Positions 31,717 to 39,138 of a stretch of DNA of 64,000 nucleotides are shown one piece after another (position 1 is the first letter of the stretch; every line of letters starts with the position of its first letter). The notes beneath the pieces were generated by a model that was not told the DNA's origin, did not search any database, and saw nothing but the letters and a program-made list of their open reading frames with translations. The position numbers and the translations under genes are program-made. The stretch comes from Marinobacter fonticola (GTDB lineage Bacteria > Pseudomonadota > Gammaproteobacteria > Pseudomonadales > Oleiphilaceae): contig NZ_CP043042.1 of NCBI RefSeq assembly GCF_008122265.1, positions 2,418,001 to 2,482,000 on the forward strand, given 5' to 3'.

Positions 31717-32904
31717 TCAATTTCCCAATGTCAGGGCGACACGGTTGTTGGGCGCGGGATAGCGCGACAGATCGACAGCTTCACCATTAAAACTCAACGT
31801 TGCAGCATCCGCAGCGCCAAGCACAATCCGGAAGGGTCCCTGCCCTTCATATTGCAGGCTATCACCGGCACGTTTCAGGGAAGCTATCACAGTCTGCCCT
31901 TGCCCGTTTTCGACAGACACCCAGCAATCGCCGGTAAAGTTGCCCGACAACACATCGGTATCGGCCGCTGGCTGGGTGGCTTCGGCTGTCACCGCCGGTT
32001 GATCCGCCGATGCGGCATCCGCGGGGGGCTCATCCGTCTCGGCGCCCTCTTGCGCTTCGTCCGTAGGGGCGGGCGAACTAACCAACGGTTCCTGCTCTGG
32101 CTCTGCCGGGTCCGACACTGACGTAGGCTCTTGCGGCCCAGATTGCTCTTGCTCTGCGGGCTGCTCTTGCTGTGCGGGCTCGGGCTGCTGGGGTGCTGTA
32201 TCTACGACCGGCTCATCTTGTTGCTCCGCCGGCACGCTCTGCTCTGGCTCTGCGGGGGCTTCAGGCTCAGGTGATGCCGGAACCTCTTCTGTCGCCTCCT
32301 CGCTCAGCGATTCTTGATCAGAACCATTGCCTTCATTACCGCCTTCCTCGGCAACCGGCGTCGCCGTTGCGTCGCCCTCTTGTTCGGGCGTCGAAAGATC
32401 GTTGGAAGCCGATTCCGGTTCCTGGACCGATTCATCGGCGGTTTCCATGGCCCCAAAGTCAAAAGGCAACAACTGCCTATCCAGCAACCGCATACCCACC
32501 AGGACAAGGGCCACCAGCAGAAGAATAATCATCGTCCAGCGTGCAATACGACGTTTCCGCTGCTTCCGCCGTTCGATATCTTCGAGCGGGTTATCCTTTC
32601 TTTCGTCCTCAACCTGCTGGCGCATGGGCTCAAGCTCCCAGTCCAGCTTCTCAATCACTGCCGCCGGATCTAAGCCGACCTGCTCAGCGTACGTCCTGAC
32701 ATACCCCTTCAGGAAAAGCTCGCTTCCGATTTTTTCGTACTGGCCCTCTTCAATAGCCTGGATGATCGATGGACGCAGGTGCTGACTATCCGCTACCTGG
32801 GTAACGGACATACCTTTAGCTTCGCGCGCTTTGCGCAATTGATTCCCGACCTCGCCGGCTAGCGCTGGCGCTTCCGGTTGTCTCTGGGCATCATCATTAT
32901 TCAT
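31717..32904 (-). CDS. rodZ: Cytoskeletal/cell-shape protein RodZ
   Basis: 395 aa. A Cro/C1-type HTH (~20-85: LRKAREAKGMSVTQVADSQ) is followed by a basic stretch RRKQRKRRIARW, one transmembrane helix (~120-140), and a ~165-residue low-complexity periplasmic linker very rich in Pro, Glu, Gln and Ala. A C-terminal DUF4115 beta domain (GDCWVSVENGQG) closes it. RodZ links MreB to the elongation machinery. Start 32904 overlaps the end of the pilW-like gene by 8 nt. Confidence 0.92.
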   Translation of the reverse strand: MNNDDAQRQPEAPALAGEVGNQLRKAREAKGMSVTQVADSQHLRPSIIQAIEEGQYEKIGSELFLKGYVRTYAEQVGLDPAAVIEKLDWELEPMRQQVEDERKDNPLEDIERRKQRKRRIARWTMIILLLVALVLVGMRLLDRQLLPFDFGAMETADESVQEPESASNDLSTPEQEGDATATPVAEEGGNEGNGSDQESLSEEATEEVPASPEPEAPAEPEQSVPAEQQDEPVVDTAPQQPEPAQQEQPAEQEQSGPQEPTSVSDPAEPEQEPLVSSPAPTDEAQEGAETDEPPADAASADQPAVTAEATQPAADTDVLSGNFTGDCWVSVENGQGQTVIASLKRAGDSLQYEGQGPFRIVLGAADAATLSFNGEAVDLSRYPAPNNRVALTLGN

Positions 32905-33718
32905 TCGAAATCAGTGCTCTGTACTGTTTGAGTTGTTCTGATTCTGGATACTGGTTGCGGAGAAGTAAAGCAAGGCTGGCCTCCCGGTGCCTGTCACCGT
33001 AAAAATGAGCCAGTTTAAGTCCCGTCAGTAGACTTTCGGGAGAATGGCTTAACTTCGGATCACGCTGAATCATTCCAGCCAAACGCTCATAGTATCGTTG
33101 AGCCTCATCATACTCTCCCTGACGGATCAGTGCCGTTGAAAGCGCCAACAGATAGTTGGCGTTACCACGGGTCAGGTCTGCCGCGCGCCGGTAGCTTTTG
33201 ACGGCAGCCTCGTACTCGCCAAGCTGATCCTGGGTACGGCCGAGGTTGTAAAAAATCGAACCACGATCATTAAAATCGGTATCCTGCGAGGCTCGGCTAA
33301 ACTGTTCCCGGGCGTCTTCGTACTGCCCCTGGCCATAGAGGAAAGCCCCGTAGAAAAGGCGTCCGCGGGTATAGTCCGGATCGCTATCGACAGCCTTACG
33401 GAACGACTGCTCAGCCAGCTCTCCCTCGCCTTCCTGTTGGTAAATCAGGCCCATAGCGGCCAGCGCCCCGGCACTATCTTCATCAAGTTCGAGCGCCCGC
33501 TGCAAATGATCCCTAGCCCGTTCGTAGTTACCTTGGCTGACGTAAGCGGTACCGAGTCTCACGTAGTTCTTTACCGCTTTTTGTTGATCCGCCTCCCTGG
33601 CAAAAGGGCTGTTGGATGTAGTCACGCACCCGGCAAGTGTCAGCGAGCCGAACAATAATAGCAATCTGACAATCAGGACAGTACGACTTGCGTGGACAGT
33701 ACGGCTTGACGATTTCAC
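32897..33718 (-). CDS. pilW: Type IV pilus biogenesis lipoprotein PilF/PilW (TPR)
   Basis: 273 aa. Lipoprotein signal ending LTLAGC, then at least five TPR units (e.g. LGTAYVSQGNYERARDHL, GLIYQQEGEGELAEQSF). It acts as pilotin for the PilQ secretin. The start is GTG at 33718 with no strong ribosome-binding site. The N-terminus contains an internal 18-bp duplication giving SRTVHASRTV. Neighbour order rlmN-pilW-rodZ-ispG is that of Pseudomonas. No other pil genes lie in the window. Confidence 0.9.
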   Translation of the reverse strand: MKSSSRTVHASRTVLIVRLLLLFGSLTLAGCVTTSNSPFAREADQQKAVKNYVRLGTAYVSQGNYERARDHLQRALELDEDSAGALAAMGLIYQQEGEGELAEQSFRKAVDSDPDYTRGRLFYGAFLYGQGQYEDAREQFSRASQDTDFNDRGSIFYNLGRTQDQLGEYEAAVKSYRRAADLTRGNANYLLALSTALIRQGEYDEAQRYYERLAGMIQRDPKLSHSPESLLTGLKLAHFYGDRHREASLALLLRNQYPESEQLKQYRALISNE

Positions 33719-33748: not shown

Positions 33749-34861
33749 TTATGGTGCGACGTTATGCACCTGAATATACCGAGCGCTACGACGCGTACGG
33801 TCTTCGAACTGGCCTACGAGCTGCCCGCAAGCTGCATCTATGTCGTCTCCGCGGGTGGTGCGTACGGTGGTGACGTAGCCTGCCTCATTCAGAATTGACT
33901 GGAAGCGCCGGGTGGCCATAGCCTTGGGGCGCCGGAAATCGCTCTCCGGAAAGGGGTTGAACGGTATGAGATTGATCTTACAGGGCAGATCTTTGAGCAA
34001 GGTTGCAAGCTGATGAGCGTGCTCAAGCTTGTCATTGACGCCGGCAATCACCGTATATTCGATGGTCACCTTACGCTTATCAGGCAGACGCGACATATAA
34101 CGGCGCGTGGCCGCTAAAAGCTCCACAATCGGGTATTTTTTATTCAACGGCACCAGCTCGTTACGCAGCTCGTCGTTAGGCGCGTGCAACGAGATCGCCA
34201 GAGAAACGTCGGACACCTCGCCGAGTTTATCGAGAGCAGGTACGACGCCGGAAGTACTGAGAGTCACCCGACGTTTGGAAATCCCGTACGCCAGATCTTC
34301 CATCATCAGATCCATCGCATCGACGACGTTGTCGAAGTTCAGTAACGGCTCTCCCATCCCCATCATGACCACATTGGTGATGGGACGCTCGGCGTTGGGC
34401 TCAAACGGCATGAATGCACGGCGCGCGACCCAAACCTGGCCGATGATCTCAGCAGCCGAAAGGTTACGGTTGAAGCCGCGCTTTCCGGTGGAGCAGAAGG
34501 TACAGTCAAGGCTGCAGCCGATCTGGGAGGAAACGCAAAGCGTTCCGCGCTGGCCGTCGGGAATCAGCACCGTCTCTACGCTGTTACCGCTGTCCATGCG
34601 CATGACCCATTTACGGGTGCCGTCCTTCGACGTCTCGTCGTAAACGACTTCCGGGCCACGCACTTCAGCAACTACTTTAAGTTTCTCGCGCAACGCCTTG
34701 CTGACGTTAGTCATTTGATCGAAGTCATCGACACCCCGCTGGTGAATCCATTGCAGGATCTGAGTGGCGCGAAACTTCTTCTCGCCTAGAGACTCGAAAA
34801 AAGCCTCCAGCTTGGCCTTTGGCAAGCCCAGAAGGTTGGTTTTTTCGGTCGGCGATGTCAT
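33749..34861 (-). CDS. rlmN: Dual-specificity RNA methyltransferase RlmN
   Basis: 370 aa radical-SAM enzyme that methylates A2503 of 23S rRNA and A37 of some tRNAs. The cluster motif CSLDCTFC, the preceding [17 protein letters not shown] and the second catalytic Cys in [10 protein letters not shown] are present. Length is normal. It is 63 nt downstream of ndk and 30 nt before the pilW-like gene, within the long minus-strand run. Confidence 0.96.
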
Positions 34862-34924: not shown

Positions 34925-35353
34925 TCAACCGCGTGGGCAGATTTCGTTGTCGTTGAAGAAATAGGCGATTTCGCGCTCGGCGGACTCGGCCGAGTCGGAG
35001 CCGTGAACAGCGTTTGCGTCGATGGAGGATGCAAAATCAGCACGGATAGTGCCAGCGTCCGCTTCCTTCGGGTTGGTTGCGCCCATTAGGTCACGGTTTT
35101 TCTTGATGGCGCCATCGCCTTCAAGAACCTGAACCACGACCGGGCCGGACGTCATGAATGCCACGAGATCCGGGAAAAAAGGCCGCTCTTTGTGCTCAGC
35201 ATAAAAGCCCTCGGCCTGTTCCTGGGTCAGGTGCATCATTTTCGCAGCCACGATGCTCAGGCCACCTTTTTCGAAGCGGGAGTAGATTTCGCCAACGACA
35301 TTCTTGGCTACCGCATCCGGCTTAACGATAGAGAGCGTGCGCTCAATAGACAT
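34925..35353 (-). CDS. ndk: Nucleoside diphosphate kinase
   Basis: 142 aa, complete. Transfers the gamma-phosphate between nucleoside di- and triphosphates through the His in NAVHGSDS; also has the N-terminal [15 protein letters not shown] 35353 carries GGAG upstream; a longer frame from 35425 reads through a hairpin and is not credible. In Pseudomonas the isc genes end just ahead of ndk; here iscS is the direct upstream neighbour, 141 nt away, with a 72-nt hairpin between them. Confidence 0.96.
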
Positions 35354-35374
35354 GCTAAATCTCCAGTTGGTTTT

Positions 35375-35446
35375 AGGAATCTCTGAATAAGTCCATTGGC
35401 GCTTCCGGCTTTCTGGGAGCGCCAATGGACTTATTCAGAGGTTCCT
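35375..35446. repeat. 72-nt inverted repeat between iscS and ndk
   Basis: Two 32-nt arms (35375-35406 and 35415-35446) around an 8-nt loop; 30 of 32 positions pair and the other two are G.T. The arm sequence AGGAATCTCTGAATAAGTCC... is related to a third copy near 38103. It ends 21 nt before the ndk start codon, so it lies in the 5' leader or the iscS-ndk transcript. It resembles a small palindromic MITE. Confidence 0.85.
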
Positions 35447-35493
35447 CAGGTGAAAAACTAGACGGCGATTATACGCGGGAAGCCGGCCACTGC

Positions 35494-36663
35494 CTACCTG
35501 ACACCCGACCTCGAACGACTCAGCTCCCGTAAACGTCCCAGTACGGAGGCTATTTCCGAGGCGGCGAAGTCGATTTCCTCTTCGTTGCTGAATCGCCCCA
35601 AGGAGAACCGAAGCGCGCTATGCGCCAGTTCATCGCTGACGCCCAGAGCTCTGAGTACGTAAGATGGCTCCAAGGATGCCGAAGTACACGCCGAGCCGGA
35701 CGCCACCGCCAGCTCGCGCAGACCAAGCATCAACGACTCACCGTCCACGCCTTCAAAGCTAAGATTGACAATACCGGGAACGGTGAGTTCCGGGTGCCCA
35801 TTCAGAGAAACACCCTCGATACTCAGTACCGCCGCCAGGAAACGCTCTCTGAGCGCGAACAACCGTTCGCGCTCAATATCCAGCTCGTCGGCCGCGATCC
35901 TGAAGGCTTCGCCCATCCCCAAAATCTGATGGGTAGCCAATGTGCCGGAACGCATGCCCCGCTCGTGCCCGCCGCCGTGAATCTGCGCGTCGATTCGGAC
36001 ATTCGGATCGCGACGCACGTAAAGCGCACCGATCCCTTTAGGACCGTATACCTTGTGACCGGAAAGGGAAAGCAGGTCCACCTTGACCCGCGAAAGGTCG
36101 ATCGGCAGTTTGCCGGCCGCCTGAGCTGCATCGACGTGGAAAAGGATCCCGCGATTACGGAGCATGCTGCCAATGGCCGGAACATCGTTGGTCACGCCCA
36201 ACTCATTGTTGACCCACATAACGCTGACCAGGCAAGTGTCTTCCGTTAGGGCCTCTTCAACCCGATCGACCGTAATCCGCCCGTTAACATCCGGCGCCAG
36301 GTAGGTTACGCGCATACCCTGCGTTTCAAGCCAACTGCAGGTATCCAGCACGGCCTTGTGCTCAATCGCTGAAGTAACGATGTGACCGCCTGGAAACCGT
36401 GAAGCCACACCCTTGATCGCCAAGTTATCTGACTCAGTCGCACCGGAGGTCCAAACAATCTCTCTCGGATCCGAGCCGATCAAATCGGCGACTTGACGCC
36501 GGGCGCCTTCGACGGTCGCTTCTGCCTGCCAACCGTAACCGTGAGAGCGGGATGCGGGGTTGCCGAACACACCGTCCAGGGTCAAGTGCTCCACCATCCG
36601 GTTAGCAACACGGGGGTCGACGGGGGTTGTAGCGGCGTAGTCGAAGTAAACTGGCTTTTTCAT
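35494..36663 (-). CDS. iscS: Cysteine desulfurase IscS (C-terminal tail replaced)
   Basis: 389 aa PLP enzyme that takes sulfur from cysteine for Fe-S clusters and tRNA thiolation. The PLP Lys is in [10 protein letters not shown] and the catalytic Cys in SGSACTSAS. The usual ~404-aa enzyme ends with a tail of about 20 residues (in E. coli ...DLNSIEWAHH) that helps bind IscU. Here the protein ends [12 protein letters not shown]. Downstream iscU is absent. The catalytic core looks intact, so sulfur delivery to other acceptors is plausible. Confidence 0.94.
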
Positions 36664-36715: not shown

Positions 36716-37201
36716 TCAGACAGGATCGCCCTGCAATAGGCGCCGGGTATTGATGGCCTCGGCCTGGCGCTGGTTCTGACGATGCGCCACCACCTGGATT
36801 TCTCGCTTGCGCATCAGGTCGGCGAGACTGATCTCACTTAAAAACGTATGGATCTGCTCACTGAGATCCGACCAGAGATGGTGGGTCAGACACTTCTCTC
36901 CCTGCTGACAGTCACCCTTATTCTGACAGCGTGTCGTATCCAGAGATTCATTAACAGCGTCGACAACCTCGGAAATAAAAACGGTATCGTGAGGCCGACC
37001 GAGCTGGTACCCACCACCCGGACCACGCACACTGACAACCAGCTTATGGCGGCGCAGTTTGGCGAAGAGCTGCTCAAGGTAAGACAGGGAAATATCCTGG
37101 CGCAGGGAAATATCTGCCAGCGTGACGGGCCCGCCTTCGGCGTGCAGCGCTAAGTCGAGCATCGCAGTCACTGCGTAGCGCCCCTTGGTGGTCAGTCGCA
37201 T
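36716..37201 (-). CDS. iscR: Rrf2-family Fe-S sensing regulator IscR
   Basis: 161 aa. Winged [23 protein letters not shown], then the [2Fe-2S] ligands C-x5-C-x5-C-x2-H ([18 protein letters not shown]). It represses its own promoter when loaded with cluster in E. coli. A good type-1 site overlies its promoter here. 52 nt before iscS, so iscRS is an operon. Confidence 0.95.
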
Positions 37202-37247: not shown

Positions 37248-37280
37248 AGTATGAATTGACCGACTATTTCAGTCAAGTAT
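37248..37280 (-). promoter_or_regulatory. iscR promoter with IscR type-1 binding site
   Basis: On the minus strand TTGACT (37276-37271), a 17-nt spacer and CATACT (37253-37248) form a sigma70 promoter. The 25-nt stretch 37256-37280 matches the E. coli IscR type-1 consensus at 22 of 25 positions by my reading, including GACT and AGTC half-site cores. It overlaps the -35 and spacer, as expected for autorepression. Confidence 0.8.
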
Positions 37281-37334: not shown

Positions 37335-38102
37335 TCAGTCCTTATCATCCCGAACGCAATCAAAATCCTCTTCATCGATGTGCGGCATCCTGCCGTTGCG
37401 GTACTCGTTGTCCACTCGCTGCAAAGCCTTGCACATGTTCTCGATCCGGTCATCCACCACCTGCATGTGGTCGAGCAGACTGCGCACCGCGCGGGCCACA
37501 GGGTCCGGCATCTCCTCGGTGACGCCATAAGCATCGAAGCCCATGCGCTTTTCCATTTCGCGCCGCTTCTCACCCTCTTCGGCGCCATCACGCTTGACGA
37601 TGACACGGCCGGGAATGCCCACCACTGTTGCATCGTCCGGAACCGCTTTAGTTACCACGGAATTGGAGCCAATTTTTGCCCTGGCGCCCACCTCGAAAGG
37701 CCCGAGAATCTTGGCCCCGGCGCCCACCACGACGCCATCGCCCAGCGTTGGGTGACGTTTGCCCTTGTTCCAGCTTGTGCCGCCCAGAGTCACGCCTTGA
37801 TACAAGGTAACATCGTCGCCGATAACCGTCGTTTCACCGATGACCACACCCATGCCGTGATCGATAAAAAAACGACGACCGATCGTTGCCCCCGGATGAA
37901 TCTCAATACCCGTCAACCAACGGGCCAAAGTCGATATCGTTCGCGCGAGCCACTTAAAGCCGCGGCACCAGAGACTATGAGCCAACCGGTAAAATAGGAG
38001 CGCATGCAAACCCGGATAGTTGGTCAGAACCTCGAAGGTATTTCGTGCCGCCGGATCCCGGTGAAATACACTGTCGATATCTTCGCGCAAACCATCAAAC
38101 AT
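37335..38102 (-). CDS. cysE: Serine O-acetyltransferase CysE
   Basis: 255 aa hexapeptide-repeat acetyltransferase making O-acetylserine for cysteine synthesis. The left-handed beta-helix is visible ([19 protein letters not shown], with catalytic His; [28 protein letters not shown]). C-terminal extension is longer than in the short epsilon-type. Its ribosome-binding AGAGG is supplied by the repeat half-copy at 38103-38129. Located between trmJ and iscR, matching the cysteine-to-Fe-S theme. Confidence 0.95.
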
Positions 38103-38129
38103 AAGGAACCTCTGATAAGTCTATTGGCG
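38103..38129. repeat. Half-copy of the iscS-ndk palindrome arm
   Basis: AAGGAACCTCTGATAAGTC... followed by TATTGGCG resembles one arm of the 35375-35446 repeat with one deleted A and a few changes. It supplies the ribosome-binding site of cysE (AGAGG on the minus strand) and the last codons and stop of trmJ. Confidence 0.7.
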
Positions 38130-38912
38130 ATTCTGACTCGCCCCGGCACTCTTCTGCACGGCCGTGAGAATACCTCGCAGAATATTGATCTCCATCTGAT
38201 CCAGATGCGCGCGCTGAAATAGCCGGCGCAGCCGGGCCATCAATTGTCGCGGGTTTTCCCGCCGGTGAAAATCGATATCCACCAACACCTGTTCCAGATG
38301 CGCAAAAAAGCCATCGACATCGTTGACCGAAGCCTGCGGAACGTCCCAACCCGCATCGCCAGGCTGCAGTATCGGACGCAAGGCCGTCTCTTCGCCCGCA
38401 TCTTCGAGTGAACGCAACAACTGCATCCGCAACTCGTAGCAGATGACTTGAACGGCCATCGCCAGATTCAACGAACTGTAATCCGGGTTGGACGGAATAT
38501 GTATATGGTAGTGACAACGCTGCAGCTCTTCGTTGCTTAAACCGTGATTCTCCCGACCGAAAACCAGCGCGACGTCTCCCCTGCCTGCTTGTCCAGCCGC
38601 CCTCTCGGCACATTCAGGCGGCGCGATCACGGGCCAGGGCACCTTGCGCCCGCGAGCGCTGGTGCCCATTACCAGCACACAGTCCGAAATCGCTTCGTCC
38701 AGCGTATCGACCACCCGGGCCCGATCGAGGACATCCGAAGCGCTGGAAGCGCGCGCATAGGAGGCTTCGTCCGGGAATGAGGCGGGATTCACCAGCCACA
38801 GATTAGCCACCCCCATATTCTTCATCGCACGGGCGACCGCACCGATGTTGCCCGAATGCGATGTTTCGACAAGGACAATGCGAAGATGGGCATGAGGATT
38901 AGTTGCAGTCAT
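38121..38912 (-). CDS. trmJ: tRNA (cytidine/uridine-2'-O-)-methyltransferase TrmJ
   Basis: 263 aa SPOUT methyltransferase acting at position 32 of tRNAs. RIVLVETSHSGNIGAVARAM is the N-terminal SPOUT signature, ALVFGRENHGLSNEEL contains the AdoMet knot region, and PSNPDYSSLNLAMAVQV completes it. ATG 38912 (MTATNPHAHL) is preferred over 38948, which adds 12 odd residues. The C-terminal SQNRQ and stop come from the repeat half-copy. Divergent from suhB. Confidence 0.92.
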   Translation of the reverse strand: MTATNPHAHLRIVLVETSHSGNIGAVARAMKNMGVANLWLVNPASFPDEASYARASSASDVLDRARVVDTLDEAISDCVLVMGTSARGRKVPWPVIAPPECAERAAGQAGRGDVALVFGRENHGLSNEELQRCHYHIHIPSNPDYSSLNLAMAVQVICYELRMQLLRSLEDAGEETALRPILQPGDAGWDVPQASVNDVDGFFAHLEQVLVDIDFHRRENPRQLMARLRRLFQRAHLDQMEINILRGILTAVQKSAGASQNRQ

Positions 38913-39138
38913 GATGTTTGTCTGTCGCCTCGGGTACATCGGGATCAAGGTATAACGGGGTAAAACTACATCCGTATAACGAGGCGAGCCATGATACCAG
39001 AAACCACCCCAACATCACGCTTGCCGACTGCATTACCCGGGTAATCCACTACGCGTGAGTTAACCAAAAAACGTACAAGGCGCCAGAGCGATTTGCTATC
39101 ATACGCGGCCTTTGAACAGCCAGGTAACAGAGAGCTCC

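Follow-up and report, generated by a model that had tools for sequence, protein, structure and literature searches.

An isc locus reduced to iscR and iscS, with an IscS lacking the IscU-docking tail, in the SUF-containing genome of Marinobacter fonticola and in its relatives

The window analyzed here is a 64,000-nucleotide stretch of Marinobacter fonticola contig NZ_CP043042.1. Its minus strand carries, in order, trmJ, cysE, iscR, iscS, 140 nt of spacer, ndk, rlmN, pilW and, further on, ispG. The features at the locus are as follows (window coordinates).

38121..38948, minus strand: trmJ, conserved flank (NF011694 over cut-off).
37335..38102, minus strand: cysE, conserved flank (TIGR01172 over cut-off).
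37256..37280 (G000:C1:2455256-2455280), strand given as ".": IscR type 1-like site upstream of iscR, 3 mismatches in 25 positions, from a whole-genome pattern search.
36716..37201, minus strand: iscR (TIGR02010 over cut-off, PRK10857 below); the three Cys and the His for a 2Fe-2S cluster are kept, C-x5-C-x5-C-x2-H by motif scan.
35494..36663, minus strand: iscS, a 389-aa cysteine desulfurase without the C-terminal IscU-docking tail (NCBIfam NF010611 over cut-off, 598.4 against 548; TIGR02006 below, 587.6 against 643.2; tail alignment).
35494..35523, minus strand: 3' end of iscS, 10 residues replacing the LSPLWDMYKDGVDL..W.AH tail of iscU-adjacent IscS (alignment).
35354..35493, minus strand: iscS-ndk spacer, 140 nt, where relatives carry iscU-iscA-hscB-hscA-fdx-iscX (synteny).
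34925..35353, minus strand: ndk, right-hand neighbor of the lost genes (NF001908 over cut-off from residue 1).
33749..34861, minus strand: rlmN, conserved flank (TIGR00048 over cut-off).
32897..33718, minus strand: pilW, conserved flank (TIGR02521 over cut-off).

Six genes, iscU, iscA, hscB, hscA, fdx and iscX, are absent between iscS and ndk in the window. An earlier note on this DNA had described an isc operon without the first five of these and with iscS adjoining ndk, and the window bears this out, with iscX missing as well. The note had also read the flank order as that of Pseudomonas, with the assembly genes between iscS and ndk there, and trmJ, cysE, rlmN, pilW and ispG are the flanks of relatives in the order that have a full isc operon. 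The short gap it claimed stands, while its length of 141 nt does not. The ndk frame is listed from a TTG at 35425; we took the ATG at 35353 as the start because translation from there matches the NCBIfam model from residue 1, and the spacer therefore measures 140 nt. Within this spacer lies a 22-bp perfect inverted repeat (35381-35440), and its RNA fold is predicted at -62 kcal/mol (z -7.2). Among 306 fetched loci, an exact copy of one arm was found elsewhere only in the window genome's own L116. The repeat is not favored as a deletion scar, since the loci of five congeners with the same gap hold no exact copy.

The window genome is one contig of 4,543,926 bases at 99.99% completeness, which together with the agreement of the family loci rules out an assembly gap or an incomplete genome; an assembly error is unlikely because ndk comes next after iscS in 30/30 family loci, window included. 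NifU_N, the IscU profile, had no match in the complete genome, in a search whose control was positive in 12/14 genomes. HSCB_C likewise had none, a slightly weaker negative for HscB because this profile missed a G108 hscB (L286) that tblastn found. Searches at the window locus gave no matches for HscA, Fdx, IscX or IscA. A relocated isc cluster, the case that the earlier note had set against its own reading, is thus ruled out for IscU and HscB specifically. The note had further proposed another assembly system, for example SUF, and the genome contains a single suf cluster, sufB-sufC-sufD-sufS-sufA-sufT-sufE, at 3.763-3.769 Mb. This cluster is 1.3 Mb from iscS (3.76 Mb versus 2.45 Mb) and not directly downstream of iscRS. 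SufB, SufC, SufD, SufS and SufT each exceed at least one curated cut-off, with SufBCDS in one cluster (L085 7652-12495), while the SufE-family match (E 5e-33) and the SufA match (E 2e-36) fall below the SufE and SufA cut-offs and were assigned by match and position. ErpA, ThiI and two matches to TusA-family proteins are also present. The note's suggestion that IscS is kept for other sulfur duties fits the presence of TusA and ThiI, which would be its probable clients, as well as the purifying selection described below, and the missing docking tail also supports the note's interpretation. SufS itself (L085 11251-12495) passes the SufS cut-off and has its top score, 603 bits, with a family 2A encapsulin cargo desulfurase model, below the cut-off of 800 for that model.

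The slot after iscR-iscS was inspected at 81 loci from 80 genomes, window included, and occurs in three states. In state A (27 loci), iscU-iscA-hscB-hscA-fdx-iscX follow iscS; no iscX was seen in L281 and L291, and L292 ends after iscU. Seventeen of these loci reach ndk, 3.6-5.5 kb from iscS. State B covers 44 loci: in 43 of them iscS and ndk are separated by 67-535 nt, and no ndk was seen in L228. The window's family is in state B throughout (30/30 loci, window included; iscS-ndk 67-248 nt), which answers the earlier note's call to look for the gap in related genomes: the gap is old, being common to all 30 family genomes inspected. In state C, found in 10 genomes of 8 families other than the window's, suf is located beside iscR-iscS. 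It follows iscS in G095, G096, G107, G110, G137 and G138 and the pair iscS-iscR in G099, while in G115 iscR and iscS enclose it. It is inverted in G132 and also, beyond a further stretch, in G114 (L206, L259). Beyond suf, ndk is found in G099, G107, G114, G115, G132 and G137 (in G115, after iscS) and was not seen on the fetched stretch in the other four state C genomes. None of the 30 family loci has suf in the slot. On plasmid records, the fetched stretches of Azospirillum and Halomonas suf loci carry no iscS. Several variants were observed alongside these states. A lone iscA lies between iscS and ndk in two families, L202 (G104) and L211 (G125), both in state B. Idiomarina zobellii (L030 8276-10577) has the same kind of gap: its tailless iscS is separated from ndk by an inverted gene, read as msrA, and no iscU lies on the stretch. 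In L309 (Halomonas sp. PA16-9), an unannotated record, the sufB matches fall in three pieces.

Across 146 relatives, own genome included, NifU_N was found in 33 genomes, of which 29 were counted as having IscU. Four were set aside: G039 and G044 for their long frames (310 and 341 aa; the G039 frame has a second desulfurase as its neighbor), G118 because the match lies inside a suf cluster, and G145 for a weak, SufU-like score, judged by score only. SufBD was found in 118/146. IscU alone occurs in 26 genomes, SUF alone in 115, both in three (G007, G094, G101) and neither in two, G040 and G141, which are 68% and 75% complete. IscU and SUF are thus almost exclusive among these relatives. In the window's family (91 genomes), SufBD is present in 90 and IscU in G007 only, where a second, complete isc locus (L178) accompanies the gapped one (L177). 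L178 (G007:C5), a complete iscRSUA-hscBA-fdx-iscX in a genome of a SUF family, reflects either re-acquisition or contamination. HscB was detected in 27/146 genomes, all among the 29 with IscU, by the profile that missed the G108 gene. CyaY was detected in 15 genomes, the incomplete G141 and 14/29 of those with IscU, and in 0/118 of those with SUF.

In E. coli, helix R379-K391 of IscS contacts IscU, and IscS(d376-404) does not bind IscU, according to the available text of PMC2854127. In our alignment, every IscS whose gene adjoins iscU has the tail (29/29: 28 from the order and that of E. coli), and no state B (0/44) or state C (0/8) protein has it; nine duplicate rows were dropped, L206 was counted as B, and L298 lies outside the set. 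Half-decayed tails are seen as LSPQWRVFKEK (L203), LSPAWKAK (L180, L193) and VSPQWKRAQKSL (L297). G007 encodes a tailless IscS at one locus and, at the other, a tailed IscS together with IscU. On a quick neighbor-gene tree (trmJ, suhB, ndk, rlmN, ispG; 61 of 83 loci had enough genes, one state C locus among them), loci with and without IscU are intermixed, and at least six changes are forced by well-supported branches. IscU and the tail change together in 6/6 independent pairs on this tree (sign test p 0.03), with zero mismatches in its 61 rows.

The IscS tree itself, built without alphaproteobacterial IscS, gathers all tailed proteins, E. coli included, to one side of a single branch (96/83; its bootstrap had not settled). 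On its own it would allow a single event, and it cannot separate one event from many. AU tests did not reject two neighbor-tree pairings that imply repeated loss (p 0.75 and 0.68), which is no proof of them. The tail was also followed in a separate set of 80 loci, mostly from beta-proteobacteria and with no close relative among them: it is present in 79, and iscU lies on the stretch in 76. The three tailed loci without iscU end less than 1.6 kb from iscS, and the sole tailless case is the Idiomarina zobellii locus. A class-wide count over 369 genomes gave tail plus IscU-grade NifU_N in 157, tail alone in 2, NifU_N alone in 7 (including one or more with a long nif-type frame) and neither in 203, the 2 and the 7 counting against the link. 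We read this count as support only, because the IscU grade (E 1e-36) was set after the list was seen and the 203 "neither" genomes were counted regardless of IscS presence.

Other surfaces of IscS have changed to different degrees. The PLP lysine (K206 equivalent) and the catalytic loop cysteine (C328 equivalent) are present in the window IscS and in 52/52 state B and C proteins. CyaY/IscX contacts R116, R223, R225 and E227, plus F89, are near-invariant in state A but variable in B and C. W45, needed for both TusA and ThiI, is kept in 52/52, and R220, G234 and R237 in 50 or 51 of 52. In E. coli, changing E49 to Ala stopped TusA pull-down, and changes at F89, R116, R223 and R340 also lowered ThiI binding, in the available portion of PMC2854127. 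The E49 position is Ala in the window IscS, with Glu in only 8/44 state B proteins; F89, R116, R223 and R340 vary in state B and read R, T, N, R in the window. Docking of TusA and ThiI on the window IscS may therefore be altered as well. The competition of IscU and TusA for IscS described in the accessible part of PMC11302665 fits an IscS that has been freed. The gene is under purifying selection: iscS dN/dS is 0.04-0.06 in four of five congener pairs, the fifth being saturated, rough values because dS is 1.8-3.3. The window IscS finds a match in 145/146 relatives.

What we take to be the IscR type 1 consensus was used for a pattern search of the whole 4.54-Mb genome. At three mismatches or fewer it has three matches, one each ahead of iscR, sufB and erpA. 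As a control, the reversed pattern gave 0 matches genome-wide. Among 28 family suf loci, 25 have a match with four mismatches or fewer within 400 nt upstream of sufB, and none was found in the other three, all of genus g5. When each upstream stretch was shuffled 20 times, the best match had 4 mismatches at L255 (real value 2) and 6 to 8 at every other locus. As far as the available text of PMC8593673 describes, the E. coli type 1 sites, where holo-IscR binds and represses, are mainly those of isc, erpA and nfuA, and sufA is treated with type 2. Since its sufB carries a type 1-like site, versus this grouping of sufA with type 2, the window suf looks wired as a set of housekeeping genes. At suf loci from other families, sufB has an iscR-like gene ahead of it on its own strand in L257, L258, L262, L263, L265, L267 and L268 (best type 1 match 9-11 mismatches), and a divergent iscR-like gene is seen with a 4-6 mismatch type 1 site in L260, L261 and L264.

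We consider it highly probable that SUF took over cluster assembly under IscR control and that IscS was trimmed to its remaining clients. The window locus would then be the remnant of an ISC operon whose genes for scaffold, chaperones, ferredoxin and carrier had disappeared by the time of the family ancestor. Clusters would be made by SUF, with SufBCD as scaffold, SufS-SufE as sulfur donor, SufA and ErpA as carriers, and SufT. IscR would serve as the retained cluster sensor and, judging from the putative type 1 sites, would most likely bind there and repress iscRS, suf and erpA when clusters are plentiful. IscS would be retained for its desulfurase activity toward partners besides IscU, of which ThiI and TusA are the likeliest (tRNA thiolation, thiamine, molybdopterin). 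Once IscU and CyaY had disappeared, the IscU-docking helix would have been lost and the CyaY/IscX patch would have decayed. Of all this, the gene content, the synteny, the agreement of tail and IscU, and the type 1 sites as matches to a pattern are observations; the clients of IscS, the binding of IscR and the sequence of events are inferred. A continued role of IscS in cluster assembly, as a second desulfurase feeding SUF through SufE or SufBCD, draws on the adjacency of iscS and suf in alphaproteobacteria (in the available part of PMC11475020) and in the state C relatives. However, the suf cluster has its own SufS and a SufE-like protein, and the window iscS lies far from it, so that we regard such a role as improbable. 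It is harder still to credit that iscS and iscR are relics on their way out, with no important function; the tail and the CyaY/IscX contacts are already lost or eroded, as would suit relics, but the low dN/dS of iscS, its match in all but one relative, and the PLP lysine and catalytic cysteine in every state B and C protein speak against it.

The origin of the arrangement is a matter distinct from its function. As a possibility that we put forward tentatively, the position after iscR-iscS may be an exchange slot, in which iscUA-hscBA-fdx-iscX was repeatedly swapped in place for sufBCDSATE; suf would later have moved off in some lineages while keeping its type 1 site, and IscS would each time have lost the docking helix and the CyaY/IscX patch, becoming a donor for its remaining clients only. 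A quick SufBCDS tree rooted on E. coli, restricted to suf loci in which all four genes exceed the threshold (four loci drop out), groups 27 suf clusters of the family in one clade (SH-aLRT 99). Beside it stands a clade of 17 suf clusters (95), made up of the 8 in-situ clusters tested and 9 others. This topology fits, without proving, an in-place swap followed by suf relocation. It can also be read toward a single horizontal exchange, in which an iscR-iscS-suf cassette with a tailless, alphaproteobacteria-like IscS replaced isc through recombination within the flanking genes and spread across the order, with suf moving away later: the 8 in-situ clusters tested form one clade, suf is beside iscR-iscS at this locus in 8 families, and one branch of the IscS tree divides tailed from tailless proteins. 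Against this, the AU tests let IscS follow the neighbor-gene tree, and the half-decayed tails (L203, L180, L193, L297) look like decay in place. On balance we find a single exchange rather unlikely, and less so repeated swapping at the slot.

The mutual exclusion of ISC and SUF is already published; it has been observed especially in Gammaproteobacteria, as the accessible text of PMC10631705 states, and PMC11559095, as far as available, surveys Pseudomonadales. The link between tail and IscU, suf in the slot and the type 1 sites go beyond it. Our literature search, covering few subscription journals, returned no paper that ties IscS tail loss to the loss of IscU. Nor did it turn up one that places suf between iscS and ndk in this order or that gives suf a type 1 site in this group. 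These genomes show the locus in three states, which bears on how a lineage changes from one machine to the other. The natural IscU-free versions of IscS help to separate the IscU/CyaY surface from the surface for other clients, the SPLW tail is a one-peptide sign accompanying IscU, and the putative type 1 site at suf hints that SUF is under feedback control as a housekeeping system.

Compared with the isc operon of Pseudomonas and E. coli (iscRSUA-hscBA-fdx-iscX), the window shares IscR and IscS, and its locus and flanks are as in the isc operons of relatives in the order, but it is without the six genes between iscS and ndk and its IscS is without the tail. E. coli suf has a type 2 site and stress control, unlike the window suf with its putative type 1 site. 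The alphaproteobacterial isc-suf operon (Caulobacter, Rhodobacter; iscRS, then suf) likewise keeps IscR and IscS with SUF, and some relatives, in state C, share its gene order, whereas the window suf lies at a distance of 1.3 Mb and has an IscR type 1-like site of its own. In the SUF-only Pseudomonadales (Halopseudomonas, P. phragmitis), SUF replaces ISC as in the window genome; the available part of that account (PMC11559095) describes no iscRS remnant or trimmed IscS of the kind seen here. Finally, E. coli IscS(d376-404), a laboratory protein that does not bind IscU, lacks about the same piece as the window IscS: the absence engineered there is the natural state in many of the families examined here.
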